From the NCBI RefSeq assembly GCF_000266885.1, contig NC_018020.1, positions 2,232,001-2,296,000 on the forward strand: DNA of 64,000 nt, in the 5' to 3' direction. The position numbers and the translations under genes are program-made. How positions within the stretch are numbered: position 1 is the first letter of the stretch; the number at the start of each line of letters is the position of its first letter. Shown here piece after piece: positions 2,865-25,910 of the stretch. The DNA comes from Turneriella parva DSM 21527 (GTDB taxonomy: Bacteria > Spirochaetota > Leptospiria > Turneriellales > Turneriellaceae). The notes below the pieces were generated by a model. That model was not told where the DNA came from and made no database searches. It worked only from the letters and a program-made list of their open reading frames with translations.

Positions 2865-5800
2865 ATGGTGAAAGCAGCAAAAGTATCCATAATTTTTCTG
2901 GGGAGTTTCTTCTTTGTACAGTGCTCTTTTCTGAAGCTAGACCCAGAGACGAATTGTTTGAACGATAAGACGGCGTGCCATAAAGCCGACGTCACGCGGC
3001 CACAACTTGCGCAGGCTATATTTCCTGTTTCCGGGGCTTTGATATCGCAGCTTGCCTATATAGACCTGCGCTTTAGCGAAGAGTTAAATGATCCACAGCC
3101 ATCTGATTTCGTACTTTCTGATACGGGTGCCACTGGCGTCAATATTGTACGCGTCGAAAAAACCGCTGCTTTCACGTATCGCCTTTATACGAATCAATCG
3201 CAGGTAAGTAACGGGCCAATAGTCCTCAGCTTTACCAATGTGCGTGACTATGCTGGCAACCGAATCACGGGCGTAACCGATGTTTCGTATCAGGGTAACG
3301 TCGACATAGAGATTAGACTGACGACCGCCCCAGCCGTGTTGAGCGGCATTAGTAATACTGCAGGCGGGTACAATCAAGCCGGTTTCGCTGTGGAGTTTAC
3401 TCACGATTTTGTAGATGACGACGGCAATTCGTGGAGCGCCTGTGTGACTTCGGGTGAAATCACATGTGCATTGGGAAGTGGATTTAGTAACGGTACGATG
3501 CTTGCTTCGGCAGACAAGACTATTGCGCCGGGTTCGCCCGTTTCTCTTTCGCGTTCGCCAACGCAGTTTTCTCTGGGACCAAACCGTCTGGTGATTTATG
3601 TAGAGAATTTTGCCAAGAACAAGAAAGGCACAAATTCATGGCCCATCTTTCGCGATGATACTCCGCCCCTCACTTCGTTCACACCGCCGGCAGATGCTTA
3701 TGCCACGGCGCAAAACATAGAGCTCACCTGCTCAAATAACTACGAGCGAATTATCTATACCGTTGCATCGCAGCAGTCCACCGCGCCAGCGCCACCACCC
3801 GACCCAACCTTCAGTGCTACCGGGCAGCCCATCTTGCCGGCTGTTCTTTATACTGGGCCGATTACCACGCCTTCTACTCCCGACCCACAGGTGAGCATCT
3901 ACAAGTGGCGCTGCATTGACCGAGGCGGTAATGTCGAACCGGTTGTTCAATCCGCAACATATACCATTGATAGTTCGATACCTGCGGTTACGGTGAATCT
4001 CGATACATCGATTTTTCGGCCGTTCGTCTCACCCACCGTGAACAACACATCGACACTGCGCTTCACAACAAACCTTGCTGCGCCGGCGACGTATAGGATT
4101 GTGCACAATGCGACCAGTTGCACAGATGCGGGCGCAACGGTGTTGCAACCACTCACCGCTTTGCCAGCGACTGCTGGCATACCGGTCGAAAGAATCCTGA
4201 ATACCAGTAGTGATCTGCCAAGCGATGGAGTATACAATGTGCGTATTTGCGTGCAGAACCTCAGCGCGCAGTGGGGTTTTGCATTTTTGCAGATAACCCG
4301 TGACAGCACTGCGCCGACTACTGCCGCTTCACCTGTCGGTGGCAGTTTTGGCGAGCCACAATCAGTGGCCTTGACCTGTTCTGATAATCCCGACCGCATT
4401 GTATTCACTACGAACGGTGATGAACCCCATTTCGGTATGCCCGCTTCGAACACATACAGCACGCCGTTTCAGACGCCACAAGGTGTGACCACGCTCAAGT
4501 ACATTTGCCGCGACAAGGCAGGCAATAACGAAGCGTCGGTCAAGACGCAGGTCTATACAGTCGATTCGGTGTTGCCGACGATTACGGTTCTCTCTAATAC
4601 ATATGCCGCGCTTTCGAATACCGGTTCGCAGACGCAGACGACGATTTCATGGACAAGTTCGCGACCTTCAGCACCTTATACCGTGCGACTTGGTGGCACA
4701 AGTTGTACCACCGGCACGCAGCTTGCATCAGGCACGACCGAACCTACCATCAGCTCGCCGACGAACACTATCGTAACCGAGGCGAATCTTGGTTCCAATG
4801 GCCCGCATACGATTCGCATTTGTGTTCAGAATCTGATATTGGCGTATGGTAACACAACCTTGACTTTAACCCGGGACACCACCCCTCCCACCTTCGCGGG
4901 CCTGACATCGCTCACCTCTGGCGGTAGCAGTAACTTCACACTCCAATGGTCTCTCGCCGATGACACGACTGGCTCTGGCATCGCGTATTACAACATCTAC
5001 CGCGCCGAAGCAGTCGGTGGCCCGTACACAACCGTGAACCATATCGCGGCGCACCCGGCGACGAGCATCAACGTGACAGTGCCGGTGGCGACGAATACAT
5101 ATTATTATGTGGCTGGCGCAGTCGACAATGCCGGTAATGAAACCAAAGTCACGGCTTCGCCGTTCGCGACGAAGCCGCAGATTCGGCTCGTTGTCTCGGG
5201 GCTTGACACCGCTAATAGCAAGACTTTTGGCTTCACCGACGGCACTGCCTCGGGCACGATTAGCGCAAACTCGATTGCGCCGGGAGTCGTTTGGGTTACC
5301 ACTCGGGGCTTGGGCGACACGTACAACTTCGCCATCACGGCGCAGCCTGCAGGTCAGGTCTGCGCCATCAGGCAGGGACAGTTCGGAACGTTGTTGAGCG
5401 ACTTGACTCTCAATATTGATTGTGCCAATGGGTATATGGTTGGGGGACGCTTTCAGGCGGTGGCAGCGACTAATGTGCCCGCTATGCTCTACCGTACGCG
5501 GGCAGAATTTTTACAAACATCCTTCGCTGTACTCGGAGAACTTCCCAACTCGCTCGCAGTTGCTGGCGGGTTTGTCTTTTGGGGGACTGACGGTGACTGC
5601 GACGGCGGCGCGCCGCTGAGTTATTGTATTTATAAGACGGACGTCAACAATATCAACGCCAGAACCCTGGTCGCCAGCGGAATTCCGGGCGTGATTCGTG
5701 GCATGGCAACAGATGGTACGAGCATCTATTTCACGACCCTCACTGATAATCGCCTCTACAAAGTCCCGGTGGTAGGTGGTGCTCGTTTCGAAGTTGCTTC

Positions 5801-8783
5801 TGGTTTCAGCAATCCGTTCGGTATTGCGCTCGACGGCGACGACATCTATGTGTGCAATCGGGCGGCGGACGAGTTAGTGAAGGTCGACTTGCGTACCGGA
5901 CAAAAGACGACCGTCGTCTCCGGTATTTCCGCACCAATCGGCATTGTTGTCGTCGGCAATGATCTATATTTTACCCGCGCGGGAGTAAATGCAGTTTACC
6001 GGGTTCCAAAGGGCGGCGGAACTGTCGTGACAGCATTCGGGCAAACTTCTGCAGGTCATGTTGATGGCGTCGGTTCTGTCGTACGCCTGAACGAACCGCA
6101 CGACCTCATTTACGATGGCAAAGGTAGTCTGATTTTTACTGAATACGGTAACCACGTTGTCCGCCGCGCGTATCTGGCAACCGGCCAGGTAACGACACTC
6201 GTCGGCAACAGCTCGATGAGTTCGATGTTCTATACCAATGGTGCGGGCAGTAGTGCGGGTTTACCGCGTCCGGTCGGTATTGCCACCGATGGCCGCAATA
6301 TGTACATCAGCCTGCACGGTGACAGACGTATCGTGAAGCTCTTTGAAGACAAACTAACCGGGCATTGGACGTTTACCAATAACAGCGACGACTATTCAAG
6401 CGATGCAGCAGCCGTGACGCCGGCTTGGTTGGGTACTGCGACTTACACGACCGGGCGGTTTGGCGAAGCAGCGGGCGCAGCGCTGTTTGATGGCAGTCGA
6501 CACGTCACCACGAAAAACTTCACTTTTACTGTTAATCAGCCATTTACTTTGTCTGCCTGGGTACGCGCCAGCGATCTCTCGGTGGCGAGGCCGATAATCG
6601 GCAACCTGACAGATTTCGAATTCCAGTGGTATATCGCCCCGAACGGATCGGTGACCTTTCAGAATTGGTACAGCAGTGGGGCGCTCACGAATTATCTCAG
6701 CTCAACTTCGGCGGGCGTAGTGAAGACGAACACCTGGGTGCACCTCACCTATGTCTACCGGGGCGGCGATACTGTGCATCCGGGTGGGCGAATCTATGTC
6801 AACGGATACAACATGACCGCCGCTTCGAGCCAGGCATCGGTAGATTTTTTGGACTCATTTGTTAGCAATGTCACCATTGGGGCCACGCGTTCACAGGCCT
6901 CAAGATTTGCCGGTTCGATGGCCGACGTGCGCATCTACAACCGTGCTCTGAGCGAGGGAGAAATCAACGAACTGGCACAAGATACCGGCACTTCTGCTAA
7001 TATTGGTCCGACTGAACTCATAGCGCATTATGAGATGTCCGGATATACCGCTTCGGGGGCGCTCGCGCAGAATCTTTTGGGCGGCACGACAAGCGCAGTG
7101 GGTAAAGACGGCGACACTGCAGGCGCCTTCTCTTTTAACGGCACGGGATCGCTTTCTGTTGATGCGGCAACGATCGCCGCGCTGCCAAAAGAAAATGCCC
7201 CGCGCACGCTATGCGCGTTCATTCGCCCGCTCGCTTATCCCCCCGTCAGTAATTTTGTGTCGCCGGTTTCTTATGGTGGCGCAGGTAGCGGCAGAGAATT
7301 CGGTCTGGCAATCAGCCGCGATGCAGGCACGAATATTTTTGTAGCGAATACATTTAATTCGGCTTTTGATCACGCTGTCGCCTATAAGTTTTCTCTCGGC
7401 ACATGGGCACATGTCTGCGCAACTTTCGATGGCACCAATGCCCGCCTCTACGTCGATGGTGCGCTGGTGGGAACTAAGCCCGTAACACTTTCTACATCCG
7501 TCTCTTCGACCGTCTCCGGGGCTTTTCGCGTCGGCGCCTGGTTTGATGACGGCCATCGTTTCACCGGCGATGTCGACGATGTTCGCGTATATAATAAAGC
7601 TCTTTCAGCAGCAGAGATACGGCAAATAGCTGTGCAGGCACCTGCAGGTTTGGTGTCACGCTTCGATTTTACCGGCGACACAGCAGATGCCAGCGGCCAG
7701 GGAAACACCCTCACCAATGCCGGCGCAACGCCGACTGACGATCGTTTCGATCTTAATAGCCAGGCGTACAAGTTTGACGGCAGCGATAGCATGAGTGTTG
7801 CTGCCGGCAATCACTTGGTATCCGATGCCACTTTCGCCTTATGGATAAGGCCCTCGACCATCCCCGCGGGGCTGACAGGCCTCATCGACAACTGGAACGG
7901 CGACGGTTCGACTGCGGGTGCCAAGGGCGGAGGTATCGTTTTCAACGGACCTACTGCGCTGCAGGTGCTTGCCCGGGGAAATGGTGCCGTGAACGATTGC
8001 GGCGTTACCTACATGCCCCCAGCAGGCACCTACAGGCATATAGCAGCCACGGTGCGCTCAGGTTCTACGGGTAACATTACCATCTACGTTGATGGGGCCG
8101 CCATCAGAACATGCACACCCGCAAATCTTTTTCCCGAATTCAACAACGGAGTAAATTTCGCAATCGGCAAGAATATCTGGCCGACAGGTTTCGACGGCAA
8201 TATCGATGATGTGCGCATTTACAACCGTGCTCTGAGCGCAACCGAAGTGCGTGCGCTGGTGCAGCAACCCAGCCGAAGAATTTATGTCACCGCAAATACG
8301 TATTCTGGCGATCTGGCTGGTGTTACCGGGGCCGACGCAAAATGTAACAATGTTGCCGATGTGAACAAGCCGCCCGGTGTCTACAAAGCAATGCTGGTCG
8401 ACGATTCTGTGCGCCGAGCATGCACCTCGGCCAGTTGCGCGACTTCTGGCTTTCTCGAAAACATCGATTGGGTGCTGCGGCCGCAGGTGCCATATGTTGA
8501 TCAGGCAGGTACGAGGTATTTGTTCACGGCGAACGACCGGGCCGTATTCTCTTCTGTGGCCATCGGTGGAATCGCCGGCAGTGCCGTGTATCCGTGGACA
8601 GGCCTCAGCAGCTCTTGGCTTGTAGGTTCAGTTATTTCTCCCACGCAGGATGATTGTGCAAATTGGACACCAGTAGGGGTAAATGGATTCTATGGAGAAG
8701 GCTCAAACACCGGTGGCGGAGCCATTTCATTTAATTTTGGCGGTTGTGCATTTAGTCGCCCGCTTTACTGCGTTGAGCAGTAG
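2865..8783 (+). CDS. Giant modular lipoprotein A: Ig-like, FN3, NHL propeller, three LamG, DUF1554-like C-terminus
   Basis: A 1972-aa predicted lipoprotein. The signal peptide ends at a relaxed lipobox FVQC (Cys20), followed by CSFLKLD, a start shared with the paralogues at 8916 and 19542. Modules in order: a Big_5/SbsA-type Ig-like domain (about 46-140, with FSEELNDPQPSDF); strand-rich modules resembling chitobiase C-terminal domains, each with a Cys pair (about 260-570); an FN3 domain (671-760); a small Cys-pair beta module (765-865); an NHL-like propeller (865-1165); three LamG/concanavalin-like domains (about 1166-1373, 1382-1592, 1594-1802), each ending DVRIYNRALS or similar; and a C-terminal domain (1805-1972) with YVTANTYSGDLAGVTGADAKC, which resembles DUF1554, a leptospiral C-type-lectin-like family. 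LamG and lectin-like folds suggest carbohydrate or matrix binding at the surface, but no ligand can be named. Confidence 0.88.
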   Translation: MVKAAKVSIIFLGSFFFVQCSFLKLDPETNCLNDKTACHKADVTRPQLAQAIFPVSGALISQLAYIDLRFSEELNDPQPSDFVLSDTGATGVNIVRVEKTAAFTYRLYTNQSQVSNGPIVLSFTNVRDYAGNRITGVTDVSYQGNVDIEIRLTTAPAVLSGISNTAGGYNQAGFAVEFTHDFVDDDGNSWSACVTSGEITCALGSGFSNGTMLASADKTIAPGSPVSLSRSPTQFSLGPNRLVIYVENFAKNKKGTNSWPIFRDDTPPLTSFTPPADAYATAQNIELTCSNNYERIIYTVASQQSTAPAPPPDPTFSATGQPILPAVLYTGPITTPSTPDPQVSIYKWRCIDRGGNVEPVVQSATYTIDSSIPAVTVNLDTSIFRPFVSPTVNNTSTLRFTTNLAAPATYRIVHNATSCTDAGATVLQPLTALPATAGIPVERILNTSSDLPSDGVYNVRICVQNLSAQWGFAFLQITRDSTAPTTAASPVGGSFGEPQSVALTCSDNPDRIVFTTNGDEPHFGMPASNTYSTPFQTPQGVTTLKYICRDKAGNNEASVKTQVYTVDSVLPTITVLSNTYAALSNTGSQTQTTISWTSSRPSAPYTVRLGGTSCTTGTQLASGTTEPTISSPTNTIVTEANLGSNGPHTIRICVQNLILAYGNTTLTLTRDTTPPTFAGLTSLTSGGSSNFTLQWSLADDTTGSGIAYYNIYRAEAVGGPYTTVNHIAAHPATSINVTVPVATNTYYYVAGAVDNAGNETKVTASPFATKPQIRLVVSGLDTANSKTFGFTDGTASGTISANSIAPGVVWVTTRGLGDTYNFAITAQPAGQVCAIRQGQFGTLLSDLTLNIDCANGYMVGGRFQAVAATNVPAMLYRTRAEFLQTSFAVLGELPNSLAVAGGFVFWGTDGDCDGGAPLSYCIYKTDVNNINARTLVASGIPGVIRGMATDGTSIYFTTLTDNRLYKVPVVGGARFEVASGFSNPFGIALDGDDIYVCNRAADELVKVDLRTGQKTTVVSGISAPIGIVVVGNDLYFTRAGVNAVYRVPKGGGTVVTAFGQTSAGHVDGVGSVVRLNEPHDLIYDGKGSLIFTEYGNHVVRRAYLATGQVTTLVGNSSMSSMFYTNGAGSSAGLPRPVGIATDGRNMYISLHGDRRIVKLFEDKLTGHWTFTNNSDDYSSDAAAVTPAWLGTATYTTGRFGEAAGAALFDGSRHVTTKNFTFTVNQPFTLSAWVRASDLSVARPIIGNLTDFEFQWYIAPNGSVTFQNWYSSGALTNYLSSTSAGVVKTNTWVHLTYVYRGGDTVHPGGRIYVNGYNMTAASSQASVDFLDSFVSNVTIGATRSQASRFAGSMADVRIYNRALSEGEINELAQDTGTSANIGPTELIAHYEMSGYTASGALAQNLLGGTTSAVGKDGDTAGAFSFNGTGSLSVDAATIAALPKENAPRTLCAFIRPLAYPPVSNFVSPVSYGGAGSGREFGLAISRDAGTNIFVANTFNSAFDHAVAYKFSLGTWAHVCATFDGTNARLYVDGALVGTKPVTLSTSVSSTVSGAFRVGAWFDDGHRFTGDVDDVRVYNKALSAAEIRQIAVQAPAGLVSRFDFTGDTADASGQGNTLTNAGATPTDDRFDLNSQAYKFDGSDSMSVAAGNHLVSDATFALWIRPSTIPAGLTGLIDNWNGDGSTAGAKGGGIVFNGPTALQVLARGNGAVNDCGVTYMPPAGTYRHIAATVRSGSTGNITIYVDGAAIRTCTPANLFPEFNNGVNFAIGKNIWPTGFDGNIDDVRIYNRALSATEVRALVQQPSRRIYVTANTYSGDLAGVTGADAKCNNVADVNKPPGVYKAMLVDDSVRRACTSASCATSGFLENIDWVLRPQVPYVDQAGTRYLFTANDRAVFSSVAIGGIAGSAVYPWTGLSSSWLVGSVISPTQDDCANWTPVGVNGFYGEGSNTGGGAISFNFGGCAFSRPLYCVEQ

Positions 8784-8790
8784 ATGAATT

Positions 8791-8915: not shown

Positions 8916-11900
8916 ATGCAAAATTTCATAAAACCGGTCGCTATTGCCTTTGTTCTGCTCTGCGTTCAGTGCTCTTTTCTGAAGCTAGACAAAGAGACGA
9001 ATTGTTTGAACGATAAGACGGCGTGCTTTAAAGAAGACAAGACGCGGCCGAGTTTCGTTCAAACAGTTTTGCCGGCTCCGGGAGTTGTCGTATCTACGTT
9101 GGGTGAAGTTCAGCTCATGTTTTCAGAAGAGCTGAATAACCCGCAGCCCTCAGATTTTGTCTATAGCGAGCCGGGTCTCATCGTACAATCTGTGACGAAG
9201 ATTGACAAGTTTACCTATCGCTTACTGAACAATCGTAATCCTAATCAGGGCGGGCCGCTCACGTTAAATTTCACCGGACTTAAAGATTATGCTGGTAATA
9301 GTATCACAAATGGGAGCATAACATATACCATTAATCTGAACATCCCGGTCACGCCAACCGCGACGCACACAGGTGTCAGCACAGTAGGCTACCCGACCGT
9401 TTCTGTTTCGTGGCGCTTTGCGTATACGCCGGTGCTTGCCGGCGATACGGTTTACCATGTCAGACTCACCACCGGCGCCGAAGACTGCACTGCCGGCACT
9501 CCCATTACACCGGCGACCGCGACACCTCTGGTGAATTCGGCGGTGCTAACCTACGACGAGACAAATTCGACGACTATTGCGGCAACAACTTACAACTTTA
9601 CGGTTAACACTTCTGTGATCACCACGTCGGGAGCGCAGAAAATTCTGATATGCCTGAATAACGTTAACAACAATAAATTCGGTATCGGCGTTATCAATAT
9701 CGTGCGCGACGATACACGGCCCGACGTTCTGGCTATCTCACCCGTTGGTGGCAATTATGTAGCGGCGCAGACGCTGACTTTTACCTGCAGCGACAACGTT
9801 GACAAAATTATTTATAACTACGCGAGCAATGCTGCGCAGGCTTTTGACCCTGTAGCCGGCGATGTGACCGAACCAGTTTTCAATACCAGCACTGGCGCTC
9901 TCGTGGCCGGCACAGGTTTCATCTATGATCCAGACAACAAGCCGGTGACGCCTTATTCAGATAATACAACGCGATCAATTTACAAGTACCGTTGCATCGA
10001 TAAGGCCGGTAATATAACGCCGGCAAATGCATTTGCGGCGCTAGTTTCAGGTGTATATCGAATTAACAGCACTTTCCCGACCGTATCGCTGATCAGCCTC
10101 ACGAAAACCGGTGCGAACCCCGAAGTGAATATCACAGGCGTTGGCGCAGGCGGGTACACTTCTGCCACGCTGAGGTGGAGTACGAATCAGGTCGGTCAGG
10201 CGTGGGAAATTCGTCCTGGCGGCACTGATTGCGGTGCTGGCGGCACATTTGTCGCTCAGGGCTCTGGCGGTACGGCCACACCGTCACCAGCTAACACACC
10301 CATTCTGACAGATATTTTGAATATAAGCCCAGGTATTGCTTCAGGTTTAAATAATCTACGCGTTTGCGTGAGCAACGGCTCAGAGTGGGGCCAGGCCGGC
10401 TTCACTCTGCTCAGAGACGATACGGCGCCTTCGACGCTGACAGTCAACGTACCGCCCGGTGATTATGGTACGGTTCAAAACCTGGTGTTCAGCTGTTCAG
10501 ACAATGAAGACCGCGTCATTTTTACGGAAAGCTTTTCGGCCCCAGGTGCGTCACCGGCCGACCCGGGTGACCCTCTGTTTGATGCGGATGGCCGACGCAT
10601 CACGGGTACGCTGCATACCGGGCCTCATGCCGTAACGAGTGACGATACTTCTTTGATTGGCAAGCGTACGCGCATCAAGTACCGGTGTATCGACAAGGCT
10701 GGTCATGTGACAGCCGTTAATGATGTGACTTATACTATCGACACCCTGCTGCCAACTATCACGGTGCAGAACCAAAACCACACTGCGGTCAGCGCACAGC
10801 CTGGTGCCAACGGTTTGGTGCAACTGACTTGGGTTGCCGACCGCCAGATAACCGGGTACGATATTCGCCGTGGCAGCACTAACTGCAATGATGGCACGGT
10901 GCTGACGAGCGGTACGAATCTTTCGAACGCTTCAGTTTTGGCAGCGGGAACCACGGTAACTTCTACCATCAATGCCAATTTGACGAATTTCGCTTTGGAC
11001 GAGGGGTCATATACAATTCATATCTGCACCTCGAACAGCATAGGCTCAAAAGGTTACACTTCGCGCGTGGTAAAATACGACACCACCCCACCCACCTTCG
11101 CGGGCCTGAATTCGCTCACCTCTGGCGGTAGCGGCAACTTCACACTCCAATGGTCTCTCGCCGATGATACGACTGGCTCAGGCATTGCCTATTACAACAT
11201 CTACCGCGCCGAAGCACCTGGCGGGCCTTACAACACGGTGAACCACATCGCGGCGCACCCGGCGACGAGCATCAACGTGACAGTGCCGGTGCCGACTAAC
11301 ACGTATTACTTCATTGCAGGCGCTGTTGATAACGCCGGTAACGAAACCAAAGTCACTCTCTTGCCGCTGGCAACGAAGCCGACGATTTCAGTGACGATGC
11401 TATCAGAAACCGGCAATACCAACTTTAATCTGAGCGACGGCACCGTGACGGCGCCGCTGACAGCGACGACGACGACCACAACTGCCGCCTGGTCAACGAC
11501 GCTGAGCGCAGGTTCGACTTACAACTTCAGCGTATCCAATGTGCCGGTCGGCAAAGTCTGTGCCATTAGGCAGCGGCAATATGGTACTCTAATTGCAAAT
11601 ATCACCATCACTATTGATTGCATCAACGGCTATACAGTCGCCGGGCGTTATCAGGCGATGCCGGCTGCCCCGTTAAACTTTATGCTGTATCGGGGTATAT
11701 CCTCAACTACTTATTCTGGTGCTACGTCGATCAATGGTGTCGTGAGCATTGGCAACATGATTTACTTCGTGCGCCGCGAGGGCACTAGCAATAGTTCAAT
11801 TCAGCGGTGTGACCCGACGAACTGCGCAGCGACTCTGGTGACCATCGCCAATCAAACCGCAGGCGTAATGCGCCATCTGGTCACTGATGGTGCCAACCTA

Positions 11901-15473: not shown

Positions 15474-18400
15474 ATGCGCAGGTTTTCTATTTTTCTGATT
15501 GCAGGGTTTTTCTTTTTTTATTGTAAAAAGAGTGGTAACGATGCCAGCAGCCTGGGCGACACCGCTAGTGGCGCAGCGGCTTACCAGACGAGTGCACAAA
15601 TTGGTGCAGCCGGCGGTACGATCAGCGACCCGAATGGTCAATGGACCTTTACTGTGCCAGCTGGCGCTCTGTCTGAAACGAAAACCATAACTGTCACGAC
15701 GAATGCGACGCCTGTCGGTTCTGTACCGCAAGAGTTCGCAGCGAGCGCGTCATTGCTCAAGCTCGAACCCTCTGGCCTAACCTTTCTCACTCCGGCAACG
15801 CTTAAGGTCACTTACCCACAGGGCGAGATGAGCGAAGGCGGTATTGAAGAGAAATCGCAGAAGCAATATTATATTAACGACGATTCGACCGTGACGGCAA
15901 TGGCGACGACGCTCAATACGACGACGAATGAAATCACGGCGCAGGTGCCCCACTTTACGATTACAGGAACTCTAAAAACGAATATTACGCGTGTAAACAG
16001 CGGCAGCATCACAAGACCTTCGCGGGTGCGTCGAATAGCAAACAACCTGATCACCTACTTTAATAATTTGGGCAGTGATGCTGCGCGTAATGCAGAGTTT
16101 CAAATGGCCGCCAATAACCCGATGCTGTTGGCATTCTTGAATAAGCTCGTACAGATTCTCGGGTCTGATATTTTTACGGCAGCTTTTCCCAATGCCGATT
16201 TCGATGGCGACGGTACTGTTAACAGCGCCGACCCGATTGTTGCGGTGAATGGGGCAAATGTCACTTTGGTGTCTTCAGGTTCGCTGTTCGTGAGCACGAA
16301 CCCTGGGGCCATCAATTCTACCCAGTTTGTCTGGCGGTCGAGCGCAACAGGCACCTATTCTATTGGGCTGAACGGCACAAATTGCAGCGATGGCACGCAG
16401 CTCGCTTCGGGTGCGGTGACGCAGAACGTTGACAACACCTACACACCGATTAACGCATCGGCGCTGATCGATGGTGACAATGAATTTCGCGTCTGCGTGA
16501 CCACGACGCCCGGGCCAATTACGCGGTTTCTCATGGTCGAAATCGCGCGCGATGAGGTTCTACCCGTTTCGTCTGCCAGCCCGGCTGGTGGTACTTATTC
16601 CACAGCGCAGAATGTATCCATGTCATGCCTCGATACCGGTGCGGCGGAGTGTGCGCAGATTGCGTTTACGACAAATGGTAGCGACCCGACGTTTGATGCG
16701 GCGGGGAATGTCACGAATGGTACATTGGTGACCGAGATGTGGATGACGCCGGCGACCGGCAACACGACGCTCAAAGTGCGGTCGCGAGATGAGGCGGGGA
16801 ATATCGGAACAACGACAAGCTTCTTTTTCAGCGTGCCGGCACCAACTTATACTGTCGGAGGCGTCGTCTCCGGCCTTAACGGCACGGTCGTCCTGCAGAA
16901 CAACGGTGGCGATAACCTCACGTTGACCACGAATAGCAGCTTTACTTTTGCCACGGTGCTTACCAGCGGCAGCGCGTACAACGTGACCGTTAGCACGCAA
17001 CCCTCAGATCAAGTCTGCACCGTCGCGTCTGCCGGGGGCACTGTAGCTGCTGCAAATATTTCAAGTGTAACGGTCTCTTGTGCAACGTCATACACTGTGG
17101 GTGGTTCAGTCACTGGTCTCACCGGCACTCTGGTCTTGCAGAACAACGGCGGCGAGAACCGCACGCTGACGGCCGATGGCAGCTTTACCTTTGCAGCCAG
17201 CCTTGCGAGCGGTAGCGCGTACGACGTGACCGCTCTCACCAACCCGGCAAGCCAGGTCTGCTCGGTAGCCAATAATGGCGGCGCAATCGCCTCAGCCAAC
17301 GTGACCAACATCACGGTGCAGTGCGCCTCTGATACCGCCTGGGTGCAAGACGCATACCTTAAGGCCTCGAATGCAGAGGCGATTGACTATTTTGGCTACT
17401 CGGTCGCGGTCTCGGGCTCGACCGTTGTCGTGGGGGCTTATGGTGAGGATTCAAACCAGACCACAATTACCAATACCGACGGCACGGCATCGGCTAATAA
17501 CTCTGCCACCAACTCAGGGGCGGCCTATGTGTTTAAGCGCGAGATAAATGGCGATTGGGTGCAAGATGCCTACCTGAAAGCCTCGAATGCAGAGGCAAAT
17601 GACAATTTTGGCTGGTCGGTGGCGGTCTCGGGCAGTACCGTTATCGTGGGGGCCTTTCGGGAGGAATCGTACCAGACTACAATCACCAATGCCGACGGCT
17701 CGGCATCCGCCAATAACTCGGCCAGTTATTCTGGGGCGGTCTATGTCTTCAAGCGCGAGTCGAGCGGCGACTGGGTGCAAGACGCGTACCTCAAGGCCTC
17801 GAATGCAGAGGTGGGTGATCAGTTTGGCTGGTCGGTGGCCGTCTCGGGCTCGACCGTTGTCGTGGGGGCTTATGGTGAGGATTCAAACCAGACCACAATT
17901 ACCAATACCGACGGCGCAGCATCGGCTAATAACTCTGCCGACGACTCAGGCGCTGTCTATGTGTTCAAGCGCGAGACAAATGGCGACTGGGTGCAAGAAG
18001 CGTACCTCAAGGCCACGAATGCAGGGGTGGACGAACAATTTGGCAACTCGGTGGCGGTCTCGGGCAGCACCGTTGTCGTGGGGGCTCGGTATGAGCGTGC
18101 CGACCAGACCACAATTACCAATACCGACGGCTCGGCATCGGCCAATAAGTCTGCCAATGGCTCCGGCGCAGTCTATGTCTTCAAGCGCGAGTCGAGCGGC
18201 GACTGGGTGCAAGATGCATACCTCAAGGCCTCGAATGCAGAGGTGAGTGATCAGTTTGGCTGGTCGGTGGCGGTCTCGGGCTCGACTGTTGTCGTGGGGG
18301 CTAATGGTGAGGATTCAAACCAGACCACAATTACCAATACCGATGGCGCGGCATCGGCTAATAACTCTGCCGACGACTCAGGCGCGGTCTATGTGTTCAA

Positions 18401-18842
18401 GCGCGAGACAAATGGCGACTGGGTGCAAGATGCCTACCTGAAAGCCTCGAATGCAGAGGCGATTGACTATTTTGGCTACTCGGTGGCGGTTTCGGGCTCG
18501 ACCATTGTTGTCGGAGCTTATCAGGAGGATTCAAACCAGACCATAATTACCAATACCGACGGCGCGGCATCGGCTATTAACTCTGCCACCAACTCAGGGG
18601 CGGTCTATGTGTTTAAGCGCGAGACAAATGGCGACTGGATGCAAGATGCCTACCTGAAAGCTTCGAATGCAGATGCAAACGACAATTTTGGCTACTCGGT
18701 GGTGGTCTCGGGCTCGACCATTGTTGTGGGTGCTTATGGGGAGGCTTCAAACCAGACCACAATTACCAATGCCGACGGCACGGCATCGGCTAATAACTCT
18801 GCCACCAACTCAGGCGCGGTGTATATCTTCAAGGCGTTTTGA
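15474..18842 (+). CDS. Lipoprotein with ZU5-like domain, EF-hand-like loop and seven-bladed FG-GAP propeller
   Basis: A 1122-aa predicted lipoprotein; the signal peptide ends at FFYC (Cys17). Modules: a ZU5-like domain (about 40-165; GGTISDPNGQWTFTVPAGAL); a calcium-type loop DFDGDGTVNSAD (about 241-252), dockerin/EF-hand-like; an Ig-like and a chitobiase-like Cys-pair module (about 260-450); and two copies of a beta module starting YTVGG and ending in a Cys (about 455-540, 541-620). From Trp623 the rest is seven FG-GAP repeats of exactly 72 residues, each starting WVQDAYLKASNA or close to it and ending GAVYVFKRE. Seven such blades fit one closed integrin-alpha-like beta-propeller that may bind calcium through the NTDGTASAN loops. 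The role is probably adhesion or ligand binding outside the cell; the ligand is unknown. Confidence 0.87.
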   Translation: MRRFSIFLIAGFFFFYCKKSGNDASSLGDTASGAAAYQTSAQIGAAGGTISDPNGQWTFTVPAGALSETKTITVTTNATPVGSVPQEFAASASLLKLEPSGLTFLTPATLKVTYPQGEMSEGGIEEKSQKQYYINDDSTVTAMATTLNTTTNEITAQVPHFTITGTLKTNITRVNSGSITRPSRVRRIANNLITYFNNLGSDAARNAEFQMAANNPMLLAFLNKLVQILGSDIFTAAFPNADFDGDGTVNSADPIVAVNGANVTLVSSGSLFVSTNPGAINSTQFVWRSSATGTYSIGLNGTNCSDGTQLASGAVTQNVDNTYTPINASALIDGDNEFRVCVTTTPGPITRFLMVEIARDEVLPVSSASPAGGTYSTAQNVSMSCLDTGAAECAQIAFTTNGSDPTFDAAGNVTNGTLVTEMWMTPATGNTTLKVRSRDEAGNIGTTTSFFFSVPAPTYTVGGVVSGLNGTVVLQNNGGDNLTLTTNSSFTFATVLTSGSAYNVTVSTQPSDQVCTVASAGGTVAAANISSVTVSCATSYTVGGSVTGLTGTLVLQNNGGENRTLTADGSFTFAASLASGSAYDVTALTNPASQVCSVANNGGAIASANVTNITVQCASDTAWVQDAYLKASNAEAIDYFGYSVAVSGSTVVVGAYGEDSNQTTITNTDGTASANNSATNSGAAYVFKREINGDWVQDAYLKASNAEANDNFGWSVAVSGSTVIVGAFREESYQTTITNADGSASANNSASYSGAVYVFKRESSGDWVQDAYLKASNAEVGDQFGWSVAVSGSTVVVGAYGEDSNQTTITNTDGAASANNSADDSGAVYVFKRETNGDWVQEAYLKATNAGVDEQFGNSVAVSGSTVVVGARYERADQTTITNTDGSASANKSANGSGAVYVFKRESSGDWVQDAYLKASNAEVSDQFGWSVAVSGSTVVVGANGEDSNQTTITNTDGAASANNSADDSGAVYVFKRETNGDWVQDAYLKASNAEAIDYFGYSVAVSGSTIVVGAYQEDSNQTIITNTDGAASAINSATNSGAVYVFKRETNGDWMQDAYLKASNADANDNFGYSVVVSGSTIVVGAYGEASNQTTITNADGTASANNSATNSGAVYIFKAF
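17340..18839 (+). repeat. Seven tandem 216-bp repeats coding for FG-GAP blades
   Basis: The Trp codon that opens each unit lies at 17340, 17556, 17772, 17988, 18204, 18420 and 18636, a spacing of exactly 216 bp every time. The last unit is four codons short and ends at the stop. Units 3 and 5 are nearly identical by eye (about a dozen differences), unit 6 resembles unit 1, and unit 7 resembles unit 2. The array therefore seems to have grown by duplication of multi-unit blocks. Recombination here would add or remove whole blades in frame. Confidence 0.95.
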
Positions 18843-18874: not shown

Positions 18875-18889
18875 ATAAATATGTAGACT

Positions 18890-19360
18890 ATGCAGAAAAT
18901 ATATAAATTCCTTCCTTACGCTATCAGCGGTGTAACGCTTATTGCAGCAGTTACTCTCTACGTCGAAAACCGCCGACAAAACGCGCAGCTTGTCGAATTA
19001 CTCAGCCGGCAGAATTCTGATGGCAAGAAGCAGGTTGACCCGTATATCGCTGGCCCGGTCAAGAACCGCATACTCAAGGGTTATCCCGAACTGCATGCAT
19101 GCTACAAGGCTTTCCTCGAATCCAAGCCCGCGCAAAAGTCGGGCAAGCTGCGCATCGACTGGCAGATTGCAACTTCGGGTCGGGTAATTTCACCCGAGGT
19201 GGTAACGACAGAGTTGGGCAATAAACCGTTCGAGACTTGCATCATGCGTAAAATAGCGGAATGGCGGTTTCCCGAACCGCCGGTGCAAAAGTATGTCGAG
19301 CATACGTTCCGGTTCGACGAAAAAGGCGAAGCGGAGAAAGCAACGGTGAAGCCGCGGTGA
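18890..19360 (+). CDS. Small membrane-anchored protein with AgmX/PglI-type C-terminal domain
   Basis: A 156-aa protein with one N-terminal membrane segment (about 9-26) and a periplasmic body. Residues about 60-150 match the pattern of the AgmX/PglI C-terminal domain, a TonB-C-like fold best known from deltaproteobacteria: CYKAFLESK, then GKLRIDWQIATSGRVISPEV, then FETCIMRKIAEWRFPEPP. The two Cys (in HACYKAF and ETCIMRK) are the pair usually conserved there. Such proteins are linked to envelope-spanning machineries, though the exact role is unknown. It sits between two lipoprotein genes on the same strand, so a helper role for surface protein export is possible but only inferred from position. 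No clear Shine-Dalgarno precedes the ATG. Confidence 0.75.
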   Translation: MQKIYKFLPYAISGVTLIAAVTLYVENRRQNAQLVELLSRQNSDGKKQVDPYIAGPVKNRILKGYPELHACYKAFLESKPAQKSGKLRIDWQIATSGRVISPEVVTTELGNKPFETCIMRKIAEWRFPEPPVQKYVEHTFRFDEKGEAEKATVKPR

Positions 19361-19541
19361 AAATTACGATTCGTATTGCCCTGAGGTGAACAGGTTCTAA
19401 ACGGGAAAATCTGCCCGGCAAATAGAGTTTCACGCACCACCGACAAAATACCCCAATGCGTATCAAGCGTTTCACCCCGCCCCGATAAACGCTGTACGCC
19501 CTTGTGCGCCGCGCCAGAATTTGCCCGAGATTGGCATTGGT

Positions 19542-22500
19542 ATGCTGAACCCAGAGCGAACAACACCGCTTCGCGTTGAAGCGACTCGAATCGTCGCCGC
19601 GCTTTTTCTTGTCTTTTCAACCGTATCTTGCTCGTTTCTGAAGCTCGATAAAAACACCAATTGTCTGAACGAAAGCGCGGGTTGCTTCAAGGCTGATAAC
19701 ACGGCACCCGAGTATCGGTCGTCGACGCCCATCGCAAACGCTTTGGTCTCGCGGCTCACCACACTCACAGTTGTTTTTTCCGAAGAACTCAAAGACCCGA
19801 AGCCAGCTGATGTAAAGATTACGGGGGGTGGCAAAGGTCAACTGACTCTGTCTTCGATTACCAAGACTGCAGCGAACACCTATACGCTTTCCTTCTCGCC
19901 GGATACAGTTTCGACAGGGCCTATTCTCATTGACTTTACGGATTTGGTAGACTACAATAATAATAAGGTCAACTATTCACTCGCGCTCACCGGCAATGTA
20001 GACATAGAAATCGAATTTGATGACAACAGGACCGGAACGAATCCGGGTTATCGCAAAGGTGTGTCGGACGGCGGCGGCTACACAACAACCGACATTAAGT
20101 GGAGGCATGCCTATCAAACTGATCCGAACAATAACTGGGATATGCGCGTTACAACAGGCGCGGTTGATTGTGCTGCTGGTACTTCAATATTCACAGGGAC
20201 TGGACTCGCGGATGCAACGGATGTGTTGCGCACACTCGACAGGCAAACGCATTTCCCTGCCGGCCCAGGTAGGTATCGCGTTGTGGTTTGCATTACCAAT
20301 GCCGCCATGAATAAAAAAGGCACTAATTCTGTTGAAATTATCAGGGACGACACACCCCCGACAGCAATTCATTCTCCCGTTTCAGACGACTACAACACCA
20401 CCAAGACCATGACGGTCGCGTGTTCGGACAATGATGATAAAATTGCCATTCAGCAGGCGCAGTTATCACCTTGGGATGGCAATCTCGTGAATCCGGCGAA
20501 TCCGGCTGACCCTGACTTTGATGCGAGCGGCGCTGTTTCGGTTGGCACATTGCTGACGGCTGGTTATCCGATCAATAATCCTACGAACCCGACGCGCACC
20601 AAAGTTAAGTACCGCTGCCTCGATATTGCTGGCAACAAGAGTCTCGTCGGCATGGCGACGTACCTTGTCGACACGACGCTACCAGAGGTGGCTGTCAATC
20701 TCGACACCAGCTTCAGGCAATTTGTTTCGGTGACCGGTTATACTACCACCACTCTCAATTTTACCACAAATCAATCCAACACAACATACCGCATTGTGAA
20801 GAATGCCACGAGCTGCGCTGCGGTTGACGGTGATGAGCTTAGCACAGGCAGCACCACACCGCCTCCAGGCCCCATTGTCATTAATGCCTCGGCGCTCGAT
20901 GTCGGGGTGAACAACATTCGCGTGTGCGTTTCGAATGTGGGAGCCACCAAATGGGGCGCCGCTTCGCTGCAGATTACTCGTGATGATACTGTCCCGTTTG
21001 TCACGCCGAGTGTCACCACCGGCACATATGGCGCTGTACAGGTTGTGAATCTTACCTGTTCGCCGAATGCCGACAAAGTAGCAATTACCGACGCGGTGCT
21101 TGCCGGTAGCACGCCACCCACGCCACCTTCAGACCCCAATATTGACGCCAATGGCATCATTTTGTTGGGTAAACAGCAAGACCAATTTATAACCCCCGAT
21201 GCTTCTGTTTCTACAATCAAATGGCAGTGCATCACCAAGTCGGGCAATCGCTCGGTGGTCGACGGCACAACTACGGCAACCTATACAGTCGATGCAATTT
21301 TGCCGACCGTGACGATTATCGGCAACACGCGTAATTTCGTGAGCAATCTGGTGGGAGCTCATAATTTCACGAACCTGACATTCCAGGTGAGCCGGCCGGG
21401 CCTCAACTACGAGATTAAAAGCGGTAGCACCAACTGCAGCGGCGGTACAACACTTGCCACTGGCACAGTTGCAACAGCCGGGCAGGATATTACTGTGCGA
21501 CTCAACACTCCATTTGCTGGCCCGCCGAACCATTTTGGTGCGGTCGGCAGTTATGACCTGAAAATATGTGTACCCAATTTTATCGGCGCGCTTGGGTATT
21601 CCACATCGTCTCTTCTTGTCCAGCGCGAAGACAGCCGGCCCAACACGGTCGCAAATGTCACCGTGACTAGTGCAACTTCAACCTCCGTTACGCTCGGCTG
21701 GGATACGACCACCGATGTCGGCCCAGCAGGCATCGCTGGTTACCGCATTCTTCAAACCACAACCCAGGGGAATTATTCGTCACCCACGACGTATACCTCC
21801 AACACGAATTCAGTGAACATATCTGGGTTAAATCCTACTATCACCTATTACTTTGTGGTGCGGGCTGTTGATAGCGCAGGCAATGTTGCTATAACTGACA
21901 GCAATGAGGTACAATCGCGGCTCGCGCTCTCCGTGACCGTCGCTGGTTACAGTAGCGCGCTGAACGGACCCTTTCGGGTGCAACTCGGTTCTGGAGAAAT
22001 TCTTTCATTCACAGCCAACGGGACACAAACGTTCTCGCAAGTTTTTCTAAGCGGCGATACCTATGCATTGCCGATCATCGCCCAACCCGCAACACAGAAC
22101 TGTGCGTTCGCGGGCAACCAATATGGGACCATGAATGCAAGTCTGGCGCTGAGCGTCACCTGCGTCTCAGGCTACACGAGCGGCGGGTCGCTCATTGCAA
22201 ACAAACCGGCGCCGCTGAACTACCTGCTCTACCGGGGCAATGCGCAGATCATTGCCGGCGGTGGTGCCGGCACGAGTTGCGGGTCGACCTGCAATGATGG
22301 TACGGGTACCAACGCGCGGTTTAGCAATCCGTATGGTATGGCGATGGTGAACGGTTTTCTCTATATTGCCGACCGTGAAAACCACCGCATTCGCCGCATC
22401 GACACGACAGTAACCCCTGCAAGCACCACGACATTTGCCGGTAGCGGTACCGACCTCACCAGCGATGGTACGGGCACTGGTGCGTCGTTTAATGCACCGC

Positions 22501-25500
22501 AGGCGATAACCACTGACGGAGTGAATCTCTATGTAGTTGAGTCGCCTGCCGCAGGTCAGGGACACCTGCGCAAGATTCATATTGCAACCGGGCAGGTGAC
22601 GACGCTTGCTGGCGGCGGTACGCAGTCTGGCGGCACCAATTGTCCGGTGACTTTTCAAGGTGGTTGTATCGATGGCAGAGGTGCGCAGGTGGCGTTTGGC
22701 GGTGCGAATGGAATCGTATATCACGACGGCTATCTGTACATCACCGAATATACCAATAACCGGGTTCGTCGCATGAACCTTGCAACGGGCGTGGTCGACA
22801 CGATTGCCGGCGATGGCCAGCCCCAATCAGCGACGAGCACGACGGGCACTAACGCGCAGTTCAATGGTGCTACGGGCGCGGCCGTTGCCGGTGGTGTGCT
22901 CTATGTTGCGGATTTTAACGGTCACCGAATTCGCGCCGTGAGTCTGACAGCTCCCTTCGCCGTCACGGCAGTTGCCGGCACTGGCGACCCGGGCCATGCC
23001 GACGGGCCTTTGGCCACCGCGCGATTTTATAATCCTGATCACCTCACCACCGACGGTTTTAACCTGTTCGTGACTGAGTACTCAGGCGACGGCAACACAG
23101 GCCGCAGGCTGCGGCGCATCGATCTGCGTAAAGGCCGCGTATCGACCATCGCTGGGAACAGCATTGCTGCCGACACGAGTGGCACGGGTGTCGCAGCTTC
23201 ATTCTATTCACCGGTCGGCATCGCCTCTGACGGCCGGCAGCTTTTCGTGGGCACTTACGATGGTGGCCGAATCTTTCGTGTCACCGACTCGGGGTTGGTG
23301 GGGTATTGGCCGCTTCACGGTGCGGTGAACGACTATGCAAGCGACGTCGCAACTCCGCAAGACGGAACCATTCAAGATTCAGATACCATTGCCAACTTGC
23401 TGCCGACTACCGGCCGTTACGGTGAGAGTAGCGGAGCATATGTTTTCGACGGCAACAACGATGTGATTTCAGCCAGTGCAACGAACTTGCCTGTGGGCAA
23501 TAGCACGCGCACGCTCTGCGCATGGGTCAAGTTCAACGGTCCTCAGAGCGGCAATGACGGTGTCGTAGGCTACGGTCGGCGCGGGGTAGATGATAATGGG
23601 TTTGGGCTAGCTGTTGAGAATGGCCTCGATATGAAGATATTCGTTCACACCAACGATGTAGCTTTCAACAGACCGGTGGAAAATGACATATGGAGTCATG
23701 CATGCATACTTCGGGATTCTTCAACTGGTGAGTTGCGAAGTTATGTCAATGGCAGGCTCATCACACTAAAAAGCGGTAGTCTGAGCACGCCGGTCAGCAG
23801 TAAACTCTGCATTGGCTCGCGCTTGAATAATGTTGTCACTAGCTGTAGCGCGGATTTCTTCTTCGCAGGTTCGGTCGCCGACGTGCGCCTTTACAACCGC
23901 GCGCTCAACGAAGGTGAGATTAACGAACTGGCTCAAGATGCGACCGATAATACCGCCGTGACCGGCACGAGCTACAATACCGGCCCGACAGGCCTCTTGG
24001 CGCACTACCCAATGACTCCGACAGCGCCGCTGCAGGGCGAAGGGCCGCTCGGGGGCGCACTGACGATCAGCGCAGGCACACCCGCGCTGCGTGTTGGAAA
24101 AGACGGCGACACGAGTGGAGCATTCGGTTATTCAGGGGTGGCTGCTCATAGCGCCAGCGGGGCGGGTTTACCCCTTGGCACAAGCCCCCGTACTGTTTGC
24201 GCCTGGGTGAAGCCATATAACTACCCATCAGACGGAAACCGCAAAGACATATTGCGCTTTGGATCGGGGGTAAACGGAAACTTCGGACTCATAATGTATA
24301 ATGCGTCCGGATCGCAGCGAGTGGGCATAGTAACGGTCGGCAACGATTTTATCGATGCGCAGTATGCACTGCCTCTTAATGCCTGGTCGCATCTTTGTGC
24401 TAACCTCACGGCAAGCGGCGGCGCCGAAGTCTACGTCAACGCGCTACGCGTTGGCAATTTAGCGAGTCTGGGCACGTCAACCGGGTCTGGCGGCTTATTG
24501 ATCGGTGGTGATGGTGTTACCGTTGACGATGTGCGCATCTACAACAACGCACTGTCGTCACCACAGGTGCGCCAACTCGCGACGCAGGTACCCGCAGGTT
24601 TAGTATTTCGCATGGACACCGTTGGCGATGCAAACGATGCAAGCGGCCATAATCACGCACTCGTATCAAACACCGGAGCACTTGCGGCTGGGCGGCATGG
24701 CGTGGCGAATACGGCTTACCGCTTCACGAGCGGTCAGCTCGCGACGTACGCACACAATACGACACTGAATACACCCAATATGACCTGGTCGTTCTGGATG
24801 AAATCACCGAGCATGACGGGCGGTGATTTGAATACGAGCATAATCCGCAAATTTCAGACATTCAATGCCGACGGCTGGGTTGTGAAATATGACCACATCA
24901 ACTACCTTCACAATTACAAGGCTTCGAGCAATATAATGAGCGCCCACGAATCATTTGTCAACAATGTCTGGACGCATTATACGGTTGTGCGTTCGGCAAA
25001 TGGGGCTAGTGACAGTATTTACATCAATGGTCAGGCAGCAGCTAATACCACAGGTTTGGGGTCAAATATTGTCAACACGGCACAGATGCTGATTGGCGCG
25101 AATGGCATGGGCGATATTACTCTGCAAGATGTTCGCATTTACAATCGCGTGCTTGATCAGGCTGAAGTGCAGGCGCTCTCGGGATATCACCCAGACCATG
25201 GCGTCGCTGGCATGGTCTTTCACGTGCAGGCCGACAATTATTCGCACCTTGCCGATGGTGCGCTAATTACCACAAACTGGCAAGATTCAACGATCAATGA
25301 CCGGTATACGCTAACGGGGGGCGTACCCACCGGCTCGCCCAAATTTGTGAGCGGCTCTTCGAGCCTACTGGGCAAAAAGCCCGCGATCGAGTTCGACGGT
25401 GTCGATGGCAAATATTTTGACTTTGGCAATACTTCGGTCACCTATAACGGACTGACCGTCTGCGCGGCCTTGACGCGTAGGGGCCTGGGCTTTCGGGGGC

Positions 25501-25910
25501 TCGTTGAAAAACGGGGTGGGTTTCAGGCAAATAGCTGGGGCATGATTACAGAAAATGCCGCGAATGCGATGAAGTTCGAAATTGGCGATCCGCCGGGTGC
25601 AAACGTTGTCGATACGGTAACCGACGATTCTCCGTCGATCTATTGCATGGTAAACGGGGCTGGCAATGCCATTCAGACTTTTGTGAATGGACAACTGGCT
25701 TCGACAGTTGGCGGTTCAACCCTGATCGGCTCAAACACCCGACCGCTGCTCGTGGGCGCGCGGTACGACTATGCCGGCTCGTATCATGGGCAGATTGGTG
25801 ACATCGTCATCGCGGTGAAAGACGCCTCGACAGCCGAACGGCGCGTTACCGAGTGCTATCTCTCGTCGAAGTATTCAATACCCTTGACGGCGGGAGCGGT
25901 TTGCCCTTAG
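19542..25910 (+). CDS. Giant modular lipoprotein C: third paralogue with NHL propeller and four LamG-like domains
   Basis: About 2122 aa from the ATG at 19542; a TTG at 19521 is an alternative start. A hydrophobic signal segment ends at STVSC (Cys30), followed by the shared signature CSFLKLDKNTNCLN. Modules: Big_5-like domain (FSEELKDPKPADV); Ig and chitobiase-like Cys-pair modules to about 700; FN3 near 21640-21900; Cys-pair beta module (21930-22170); NHL-like propeller (22240-23285) with blades such as GFLYIADRENHRIRRID; three LamG domains (about 23289-23945, 23990-24590, 24596-25190); and a fourth LamG-like end (25200-25910) closing TECYLSSKYSI. Compared with proteins A and B its DNA is clearly more diverged, so it is the older copy. 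It is convergent with the penicillin-acylase-family gene, with only 14 bp between stops. Likely a surface binding protein; ligand unknown. Confidence 0.87.
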   Translation: MLNPERTTPLRVEATRIVAALFLVFSTVSCSFLKLDKNTNCLNESAGCFKADNTAPEYRSSTPIANALVSRLTTLTVVFSEELKDPKPADVKITGGGKGQLTLSSITKTAANTYTLSFSPDTVSTGPILIDFTDLVDYNNNKVNYSLALTGNVDIEIEFDDNRTGTNPGYRKGVSDGGGYTTTDIKWRHAYQTDPNNNWDMRVTTGAVDCAAGTSIFTGTGLADATDVLRTLDRQTHFPAGPGRYRVVVCITNAAMNKKGTNSVEIIRDDTPPTAIHSPVSDDYNTTKTMTVACSDNDDKIAIQQAQLSPWDGNLVNPANPADPDFDASGAVSVGTLLTAGYPINNPTNPTRTKVKYRCLDIAGNKSLVGMATYLVDTTLPEVAVNLDTSFRQFVSVTGYTTTTLNFTTNQSNTTYRIVKNATSCAAVDGDELSTGSTTPPPGPIVINASALDVGVNNIRVCVSNVGATKWGAASLQITRDDTVPFVTPSVTTGTYGAVQVVNLTCSPNADKVAITDAVLAGSTPPTPPSDPNIDANGIILLGKQQDQFITPDASVSTIKWQCITKSGNRSVVDGTTTATYTVDAILPTVTIIGNTRNFVSNLVGAHNFTNLTFQVSRPGLNYEIKSGSTNCSGGTTLATGTVATAGQDITVRLNTPFAGPPNHFGAVGSYDLKICVPNFIGALGYSTSSLLVQREDSRPNTVANVTVTSATSTSVTLGWDTTTDVGPAGIAGYRILQTTTQGNYSSPTTYTSNTNSVNISGLNPTITYYFVVRAVDSAGNVAITDSNEVQSRLALSVTVAGYSSALNGPFRVQLGSGEILSFTANGTQTFSQVFLSGDTYALPIIAQPATQNCAFAGNQYGTMNASLALSVTCVSGYTSGGSLIANKPAPLNYLLYRGNAQIIAGGGAGTSCGSTCNDGTGTNARFSNPYGMAMVNGFLYIADRENHRIRRIDTTVTPASTTTFAGSGTDLTSDGTGTGASFNAPQAITTDGVNLYVVESPAAGQGHLRKIHIATGQVTTLAGGGTQSGGTNCPVTFQGGCIDGRGAQVAFGGANGIVYHDGYLYITEYTNNRVRRMNLATGVVDTIAGDGQPQSATSTTGTNAQFNGATGAAVAGGVLYVADFNGHRIRAVSLTAPFAVTAVAGTGDPGHADGPLATARFYNPDHLTTDGFNLFVTEYSGDGNTGRRLRRIDLRKGRVSTIAGNSIAADTSGTGVAASFYSPVGIASDGRQLFVGTYDGGRIFRVTDSGLVGYWPLHGAVNDYASDVATPQDGTIQDSDTIANLLPTTGRYGESSGAYVFDGNNDVISASATNLPVGNSTRTLCAWVKFNGPQSGNDGVVGYGRRGVDDNGFGLAVENGLDMKIFVHTNDVAFNRPVENDIWSHACILRDSSTGELRSYVNGRLITLKSGSLSTPVSSKLCIGSRLNNVVTSCSADFFFAGSVADVRLYNRALNEGEINELAQDATDNTAVTGTSYNTGPTGLLAHYPMTPTAPLQGEGPLGGALTISAGTPALRVGKDGDTSGAFGYSGVAAHSASGAGLPLGTSPRTVCAWVKPYNYPSDGNRKDILRFGSGVNGNFGLIMYNASGSQRVGIVTVGNDFIDAQYALPLNAWSHLCANLTASGGAEVYVNALRVGNLASLGTSTGSGGLLIGGDGVTVDDVRIYNNALSSPQVRQLATQVPAGLVFRMDTVGDANDASGHNHALVSNTGALAAGRHGVANTAYRFTSGQLATYAHNTTLNTPNMTWSFWMKSPSMTGGDLNTSIIRKFQTFNADGWVVKYDHINYLHNYKASSNIMSAHESFVNNVWTHYTVVRSANGASDSIYINGQAAANTTGLGSNIVNTAQMLIGANGMGDITLQDVRIYNRVLDQAEVQALSGYHPDHGVAGMVFHVQADNYSHLADGALITTNWQDSTINDRYTLTGGVPTGSPKFVSGSSSLLGKKPAIEFDGVDGKYFDFGNTSVTYNGLTVCAALTRRGLGFRGLVEKRGGFQANSWGMITENAANAMKFEIGDPPGANVVDTVTDDSPSIYCMVNGAGNAIQTFVNGQLASTVGGSTLIGSNTRPLLVGARYDYAGSYHGQIGDIVIAVKDASTAERRVTECYLSSKYSIPLTAGAVCP

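Follow-up and report, generated by a model that had tools for sequence, protein, structure and literature searches.

Polymorphic toxins and Rhs proteins change by C-terminal displacement, in which a conserved body carries an exchangeable C-terminus and an orphan tail lies downstream. The Len proteins of Leptospira interrogans (LenA-F) are small. As reported in PMC2063517, these lipoproteins carry a DUF1554/endostatin-like domain, they bind both laminin and fibronectin, and recombination has diversified them. For the Slam-dependent surface lipoproteins, as outlined in PMC7857515, a gene adjoining the lipoprotein genes acts in their surface delivery. Here we analyzed a stretch of 64,000 nucleotides from Turneriella parva DSM 21527 (NC_018020.1, positions 2,232,001-2,296,000 of the forward strand; referred to as the window, whose positions are used for all coordinates below), in which three giant modular lipoproteins, denoted P1, P2 and P3, are clustered with a fourth, FG-GAP propeller protein and an upstream gene, the partner. 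The genome comprises 4,409,302 bases in 2 contigs, the larger one of 4,384,015 bases, and is described as a chromosome plus a plasmid (PMC3746428). Our analysis indicates that the cluster probably encodes adhesin-like, lipid-anchored rods of interchangeable parts, whose surface display may be assisted by the partner.

As outlined in Table 1, P1, P2 and P3 are uninterrupted, colinear open reading frames (ORFs), which can be aligned end to end with 31-35% amino acid (aa) identity over ~1900-2240 columns (blastp, E = 0.0) and follow one common plan of N-terminal module, Ig-like stalk, FN3-like domain, NHL-type propeller and three LamG domains. The original prediction, made from the letters alone, had ascribed an N-terminal CSFLKLD signature, FN3, an NHL propeller and three LamG domains to all three paralogues, and each of these features was recovered. 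The signature is present in P1, P2 and P3, and Laminin_G_3 of Pfam exceeded its cut-off in all of them with 3, 3 and 4 stretches, respectively. Pfam fn3 (37.1 bits) and NHL scored in P3 only, and the FN3 and propeller regions of P1 and P2 were assigned through alignment with P3 and relatives. The DUF1554-like end proposed for P1 was found at aa 1811-1938, far above the cut-off of 27.5 bits. Against the Len family NF047482 P1 reached 60.6 of 300 bits, below the curated whole-protein cut-off; judged by these scores, P1 contains a Len-like domain without being classed as a Len protein. Unlike in the Len proteins, this domain caps a 1972-aa putative rod and is one of several tips. Among the LamG/Laminin_G_3 concanavalin-A (ConA)-like domains, which include sialidase lectin modules and the PilC minor pilin, LamG1-3 can be placed by Pfam and the fourth domain by fold; what differs here is a propeller followed by three such domains in a row, to which an exchangeable one is added as the fourth. 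The stalk repeats are weakly similar to Leptospira proteins of the OmpL47 type (NF047441, 16-19 bits), far below the cut-off of 250, and the overall architecture differs.

In all four lipoproteins a cysteine follows a hydrophobic stretch (putative lipobox, TVSC in P3 and VQC in P1 and P2), and this N-terminus is conserved at the same place in relatives. These lipobox-like N-termini and the domain content suggest lipoprotein export and surface exposure for the giants and the FG-GAP protein. The fourth protein is indeed propeller lipoprotein-like, as had been proposed, while its propeller is of the FG-GAP_2 type (seven repeats, 266.6 bits) and not NHL. Its blades are encoded by a tandem repeat (17339-18833), whose copy number could vary between strains. 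The size of the giants, initially considered unusual for spirochaete lipoproteins, turned out not to be, because several families of the class contain proteins of ~1200-2440 aa that have this core.

Table 1 Features of the giant lipoprotein cluster (window positions; evidence as obtained in this analysis).
Feature	Position	Strand	Evidence
Partner gene, CsgG/FlgO-like N-terminal half, DUF5683-like middle, C end NYAF (outer-membrane-protein (OMP)-like)	1673..2734	+	Pfam, profile family A4
P1 (1972 aa), giant modular lipoprotein with DUF1554 tip	2865..8783	+	ORF, Pfam
P1 N-terminal module, Ig-like, from lipobox Cys20 (CSFLKLD...NCLN)	2922..3305	+	sequence, alignment; kept in relatives
FN3 exchange tract, P1 copy, 309 bp, 265 identical to P2	4875..5183	+	blastn
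P1 propeller (NHL by alignment)	5433..6359	+	alignment to P3 and relatives
P1 three LamG domains	6360..8264	+	Laminin_G_3 242 bits, 3 stretches
P1 exchangeable tip, DUF1554/Len-like	8265..8780	+	DUF1554 91.6 bits; LenA/LenB model 60.6 bits
P2 (2113 aa), giant modular lipoprotein with ConA-like tip	8916..15257	+	ORF, Pfam
FN3 exchange tract, P2 copy	11079..11387	+	blastn
P2 propeller (NHL by alignment)	11637..12557	+	alignment to P3 and relatives
P2 three LamG domains	12558..14513	+	Laminin_G_3 232 bits, 3 stretches
P2 exchangeable tip, fourth ConA/LamG-like domain (ECYLSSKYSI)	14514..15254	+	model and PDB comparison
FG-GAP propeller lipoprotein-like ORF, 1122 aa, some shared stalk modules (CHB, Ig, TTR-like)	15474..18842	+	Pfam, alignment
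216-bp tandem repeat array encoding FG-GAP blades	17339..18833	+	6.9 copies, 82% matches
Small ORF, 156 aa, AgmX/PglI C-terminal domain	18890..19360	+	NF033768 66.1 bits, cut-off 40
P3 (2129 aa from TTG, in-frame ATG 19542), giant modular lipoprotein with ConA-like tip	19521..25910	+	ORF, Pfam
P3 NHL propeller	22185..23285	+	NHL 50.4 bits
P3 three LamG domains	23286..25184	+	Laminin_G_3 167 bits
P3 exchangeable tip, fourth ConA/LamG-like domain	25185..25907	+	weak Laminin_G_3 23.9 bits; aligned with P2 tip

The ECYLSSKYSI domain at the end of P2 and P3, originally taken for a fourth LamG-like domain, gave no Laminin_G_3 match in P2 and stayed below the cut-off in P3 (23.9 of 27.6 bits). A structural model was obtained for the last 247 aa of P2 together with eight other sequences, one being P3 and the remaining seven being proteins of loci that a genome contig scan had detected, in which 71 candidate stretches yielded 8 confirmed loci, all from spirochaete metagenome-assembled genomes. 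The model (mean predicted local distance difference test score, pLDDT, 68.3; predicted template modeling score, pTM, 0.75) gave 49 Foldseek matches at E <= 0.001, the best of them to trypanosomal sialidases (4.1e-6), of which the C-terminal lectin-like part was covered. VIA-align resulted in Z values of 14.3 for the phage tailspike 9vyh, 13.1 for the GH54 arabinofuranosidase 1wd3, 12.9 for AbnA domain 4 (5hon) and 12.1 for the PilC minor pilin 7oa8. The model supports a concanavalin-A/LamG sandwich for the fourth domain of P2, in line with the earlier assignment; the shared fold does not by itself show the ligand. For the DUF1554 tip the model was unusable for a fold search (pLDDT 35.1 from 3 sequences), and PDB sequence searches with the DUF1554 and ConA-like tips returned no relatives beyond one chance match (E 0.6).

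That the cluster evolves through domain swapping had been deduced from the differing ends; direct evidence is now added by an FN3 tract common to P1 and P2 and by a mosaic gene in a congener. The tract comprises 309 bp with 265 identical bases in proteins which are otherwise ~35% identical. Further blastn matches between both genes were restricted to 86 bp at the N-terminus plus 56 and 69 bp. In windows of 30 codons the median identity was 0.43, and most of the FN3 tract reached 0.83-0.93. Identical residues were encoded by the same codon in 70/92 cases within FN3 vs 201/541 elsewhere (Fisher 2.6e-12), and at aa 18-46 in 23/25. This codon pattern is more in line with recent exchange than with protein-level selection alone, and short conserved DNA at the LamG ends and FN3 may act as crossing points.

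The mosaic gene was found in the congener genome G007 (L039:5930-11272, 1780 aa, its 5' side cut by the contig). Its stalk is ~70% identical to P2 (aa 1-450) and 30% to P1, whereas its propeller and LamG1-2 are ~81% identical to P1 (aa 640-1380; 73-88% by window). For comparison, the baseline identity of G007-G009 to the window was 72-74% for penicillin amidase and 73-83% for exonuclease VII. A max-chi2 value of 435, reached in 0/2000 permutations, was obtained for a break near aa 565, with sites (P1/P2) of 16/161 to the left and 516/55 to the right. LamG3 is diverged (only 35-50% to P1), and FN3 is closest to a paralogue of its own genome (55-63%). The only clear case of a displaced tip was found in G009, where a ConA-tipped giant and a 515-aa SBBP-propeller lipoprotein are followed, 26 bp further on, by an orphan frame consisting of the last ~40 aa of a LamG domain and DUF1554 (95.3 bits), with no signal peptide recognizable by eye. 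We read this frame as a tip that was probably displaced. The conserved body, exchangeable C-terminus and downstream orphan tail resemble polymorphic toxins and Rhs proteins; unlike there, the tips are lectin-like (DUF1554, ConA-like or DUF5122) and no toxin or immunity gene was seen.

For the P3 tip, which is 85% identical in G011, horizontal transfer into this genome was considered and rejected, because the neighboring genes share 91-92% identity and their order is conserved. A search for relatives of the P2 N-terminus on plasmids found none. The P3 relative of G008 (L040, ~15408) is split within the propeller into two overlapping frames, representing either a broken gene or an assembly fault.

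Across the class, 48 genomes were surveyed, 20 of which contained the core at E <= 1e-20, and a core tree was calculated from LamG2-3 of 28 core proteins. Outside the tree remained the G003 giant, cut by the contig end, two core proteins without tip (G008 contig 234 and G015 contig 182) and one with an unassigned beta-rich tail (G015 contig 1). The tree proteins carry DUF1554 in 11 cases, a ConA-like tip in 16 and, in the G017 giant, a DUF5122 propeller in tip position (L076, aa 1350-1775), so that by sequence three or more types of tip sit on the conserved core. Placing the DUF1554 and ConA labels on the tree needs 6 changes, at least 2 of which are required by well supported branches. The genomes G000 (that of the window), G007, G008, G004, G014 and G028 each contain tips of both types. 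Furthermore, both are found in proteins much shorter than the giants: the window's genome has DUF1554 at 11 places, one of them being P1, and the ConA-like tip is present in L089 and L092. Altogether, the sequences show a modular architecture, recombination between paralogues and varying tips on a conserved propeller-LamG core.

The partner directly upstream of P1 matched DUF5683 (30.3 bits, cut-off 26.7) and, below cut-off, FlgO (16.0 bits). Relatives lie beside giants in G008, G009, G002 and G003 (divergent in the latter two) and also beside smaller modular lipoproteins. The profile A4, built from 11 partner proteins, gave 26 matches in the window's genome, which contains about two dozen partner loci (window 1673-2734; L115, L135-L154). 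From 24 partner ORFs one at a stretch edge and one 106-aa fragment were excluded, leaving 22 evaluable ones, and 19 loci at round coordinates served as controls. Pairing was defined as a lipoprotein-like ORF next on the same strand within 200 bp, where lipoprotein-like follows a rule devised here after inspecting the partner loci. By this definition a partner directly precedes a lipoprotein-like gene in 17/22 cases vs 14/124 control genes of at least 200 aa (Fisher 6.1e-10); several pairs overlap by 4 bp. The other genomes gave a weaker pairing (16/25 evaluable). An OMP-like C end was observed in 17/23 partners vs 17/130 controls and, again weaker, in 14/26 partners of other genomes. Six scanned proteins downstream of partners include Big, fn3, CHB, DUF5122 and DUF1554 modules. 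CsgG exceeded its cut-off in one of ten partners scanned (37.5 bits, cut-off 20.8), and OMP_b-brl stayed below cut-off in two of the ten. As with Slam, the partner lies next to lipoprotein-like genes, may act in their surface delivery and is likely to include a barrel. In distinction to Slam, its N-terminal half is CsgG/FlgO-like and no Slam barrel profile was matched in 11 partners scanned (Pfam); a function in translocation would be conjectural.

The partner subtype follows the N-terminal module of the lipoprotein. Window-type partners (blastp E <= 1e-20) are paired with a lipoprotein bearing the NCLN module at 11/12 loci and other partners at 0/24, counting one partner per locus and leaving out L143 and loci without a paired lipoprotein. 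At a looser 1e-10 the numbers were 11/18 vs 0/18. With LPG[WLF]G, a short motif, as the criterion for the subtype, the association was weak (6/10 vs 5/27, p 0.022), because this motif misses clear relatives; the blastp test was picked after this result was known. The NCLN lipoproteins range from 364 to >2000 aa, apart from a 146-aa piece of a frame-broken G003 gene. Since relatives are non-independent, we take 11/12 vs 0/24 as a sign of stable partner-module co-inheritance rather than of contact. Within these limits, partners and lipoprotein-like genes are paired genome-wide, with the partner subtype matched to the NCLN module. At E <= 1e-25 the partner is present in all 18 genomes of the order.

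In the mechanism proposed here, a rod would begin at its lipid anchor with the N-terminal address module, which is followed by an Ig/FN3 stalk, the propeller, the LamG triad and an exchangeable lectin-like tip. By means of a CsgG-like domain in the periplasm and a barrel that is likely at its C-terminus, the partner would recognize the N-terminal module and help to place or hold the lipoprotein on the surface. If the address is retained while stalk, propeller and tip recombine, the binding target may change and the delivery route would stay the same. The LamG and DUF1554 tips presumably bind glycans or matrix proteins, which is plausible in view of the Len proteins of Leptospira, with their binding of laminin and fibronectin and their diversification through recombination; delivery, exposure and ligand binding by the rods are all conjectural. 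According to a tentative and rather doubtful extension of this proposal, the partners of Turneriella and its relatives constitute an undescribed system that delivers surface lipoproteins in an address-specific manner, each subtype reading the N-terminal module of its lipoprotein (NCLN for the subtype in the window).

Several points weigh against the proposed rods and their partner-assisted display. The VQC ending is atypical for a lipobox, TVSC being conventional. The mosaic gene and the orphan frame come from draft genomes in many contigs. In the window's genome 5/22 partners precede other genes, two G004 giants have no adjacent partner gene, and the pair counts include related genes, which are not independent. 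At E <= 1e-25 the partner was found in 0/30 genomes outside the order; because several of these have giants, the core there manages without it. Finally, a single DUF1554-tip clade gave p-AU values in the approximately unbiased (AU) test of 0.052 (28 rows) and 0.018 (24 rows, quick tree), and with this borderline result the number of tip swaps is uncertain. As the 28-row test does not reject one clade at 0.05, the tips could mark two ancient vertical subfamilies, the seeming swaps being old duplication followed by fast divergence, and the loose grouping of the DUF1554 cores of P1, G007, G014_131 and the two of G028 in the core tree would agree with this. We consider this unlikely, as the mosaic gene and the 309-bp tract represent direct segmental exchange, a supported (starred) branch unites G004_133 (DUF1554) with G014_61 (ConA-like) and DUF5122 occurs as a third tip on the same core. 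It is somewhat less probable still that the G007 mosaic is an assembler chimera across repeated domains: although the G007 draft consists of 470 contigs and the one in question begins inside the mosaic gene, the complementary halves (P1-like stalk, P2-like propeller-to-tip) were not found elsewhere in G007, the junction FN3 is not near-identical to P1 or P2, and a P3 relative follows directly, as in G008. Furthermore, the P1-P2 tract lies in the window's complete genome.

The most serious competitor concerns the partner, which could be a co-regulated envelope protein, e.g. a peptidoglycan-linked anchor or LpoB-like regulator, merely sharing operons and not acting in export. We give this reading a considerable chance, short of even. 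Besides CsgG, its N-terminal half also resembles LpoB and FlgO, the best PDB sequence match is LpoB (2mii, E 0.096), and DUF5683 of the window's partner may be an inner-membrane domain; the OMP-like C ends and a subtype that tracks the N-terminal module of the lipoprotein, not the cargo, speak for export. Modules such as LamG/ConA, CHB_HEX and sialidase-associated lectins are common in glycan-degrading enzymes, and the giants might be such enzymes or their scaffolds instead of adhesins; with no catalytic Pfam domain matched in P1, P2, P3 or the FG-GAP protein, this is the least probable of the alternatives.

If address-specific delivery holds, everything beyond the N-terminal module would be free for swapping, and one route could serve evolving adhesin rods and tips. 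With about two dozen partner genes, subtype-matched to a lipoprotein module, the question of surface delivery becomes testable in one organism, and the cluster offers a clean natural example of adhesin-like rods which change their tips and keep their anchor. As such the domains are known. The architecture, the partner pairing and the exchange of tips on the propeller-LamG core appear to be new, and were not found in searches of the open-licence literature on LamG/CsgG and Leptospira/spirochete lipoproteins. This Turneriella parva strain colonizes the extracellular matrix of Hydra and takes part in tumor formation (PMC7081986). Section 11 of that paper, a genome survey, notes 'relatively few putative virulence factors' and makes no mention of the giants, which may bear on the life of Turneriella parva in Hydra.

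In the ORF between the FG-GAP gene and P3 (18890-19360) the C-terminal AgmX/PglI domain is gliding-motility-like. Elsewhere in the window a 1584-aa protein on the minus strand (49044-53798) had no Pfam match at E <= 0.001, and an 815-aa protein (32962-35409) joins isochorismatase-like, TCAD9 and dual-specificity phosphatase domains.

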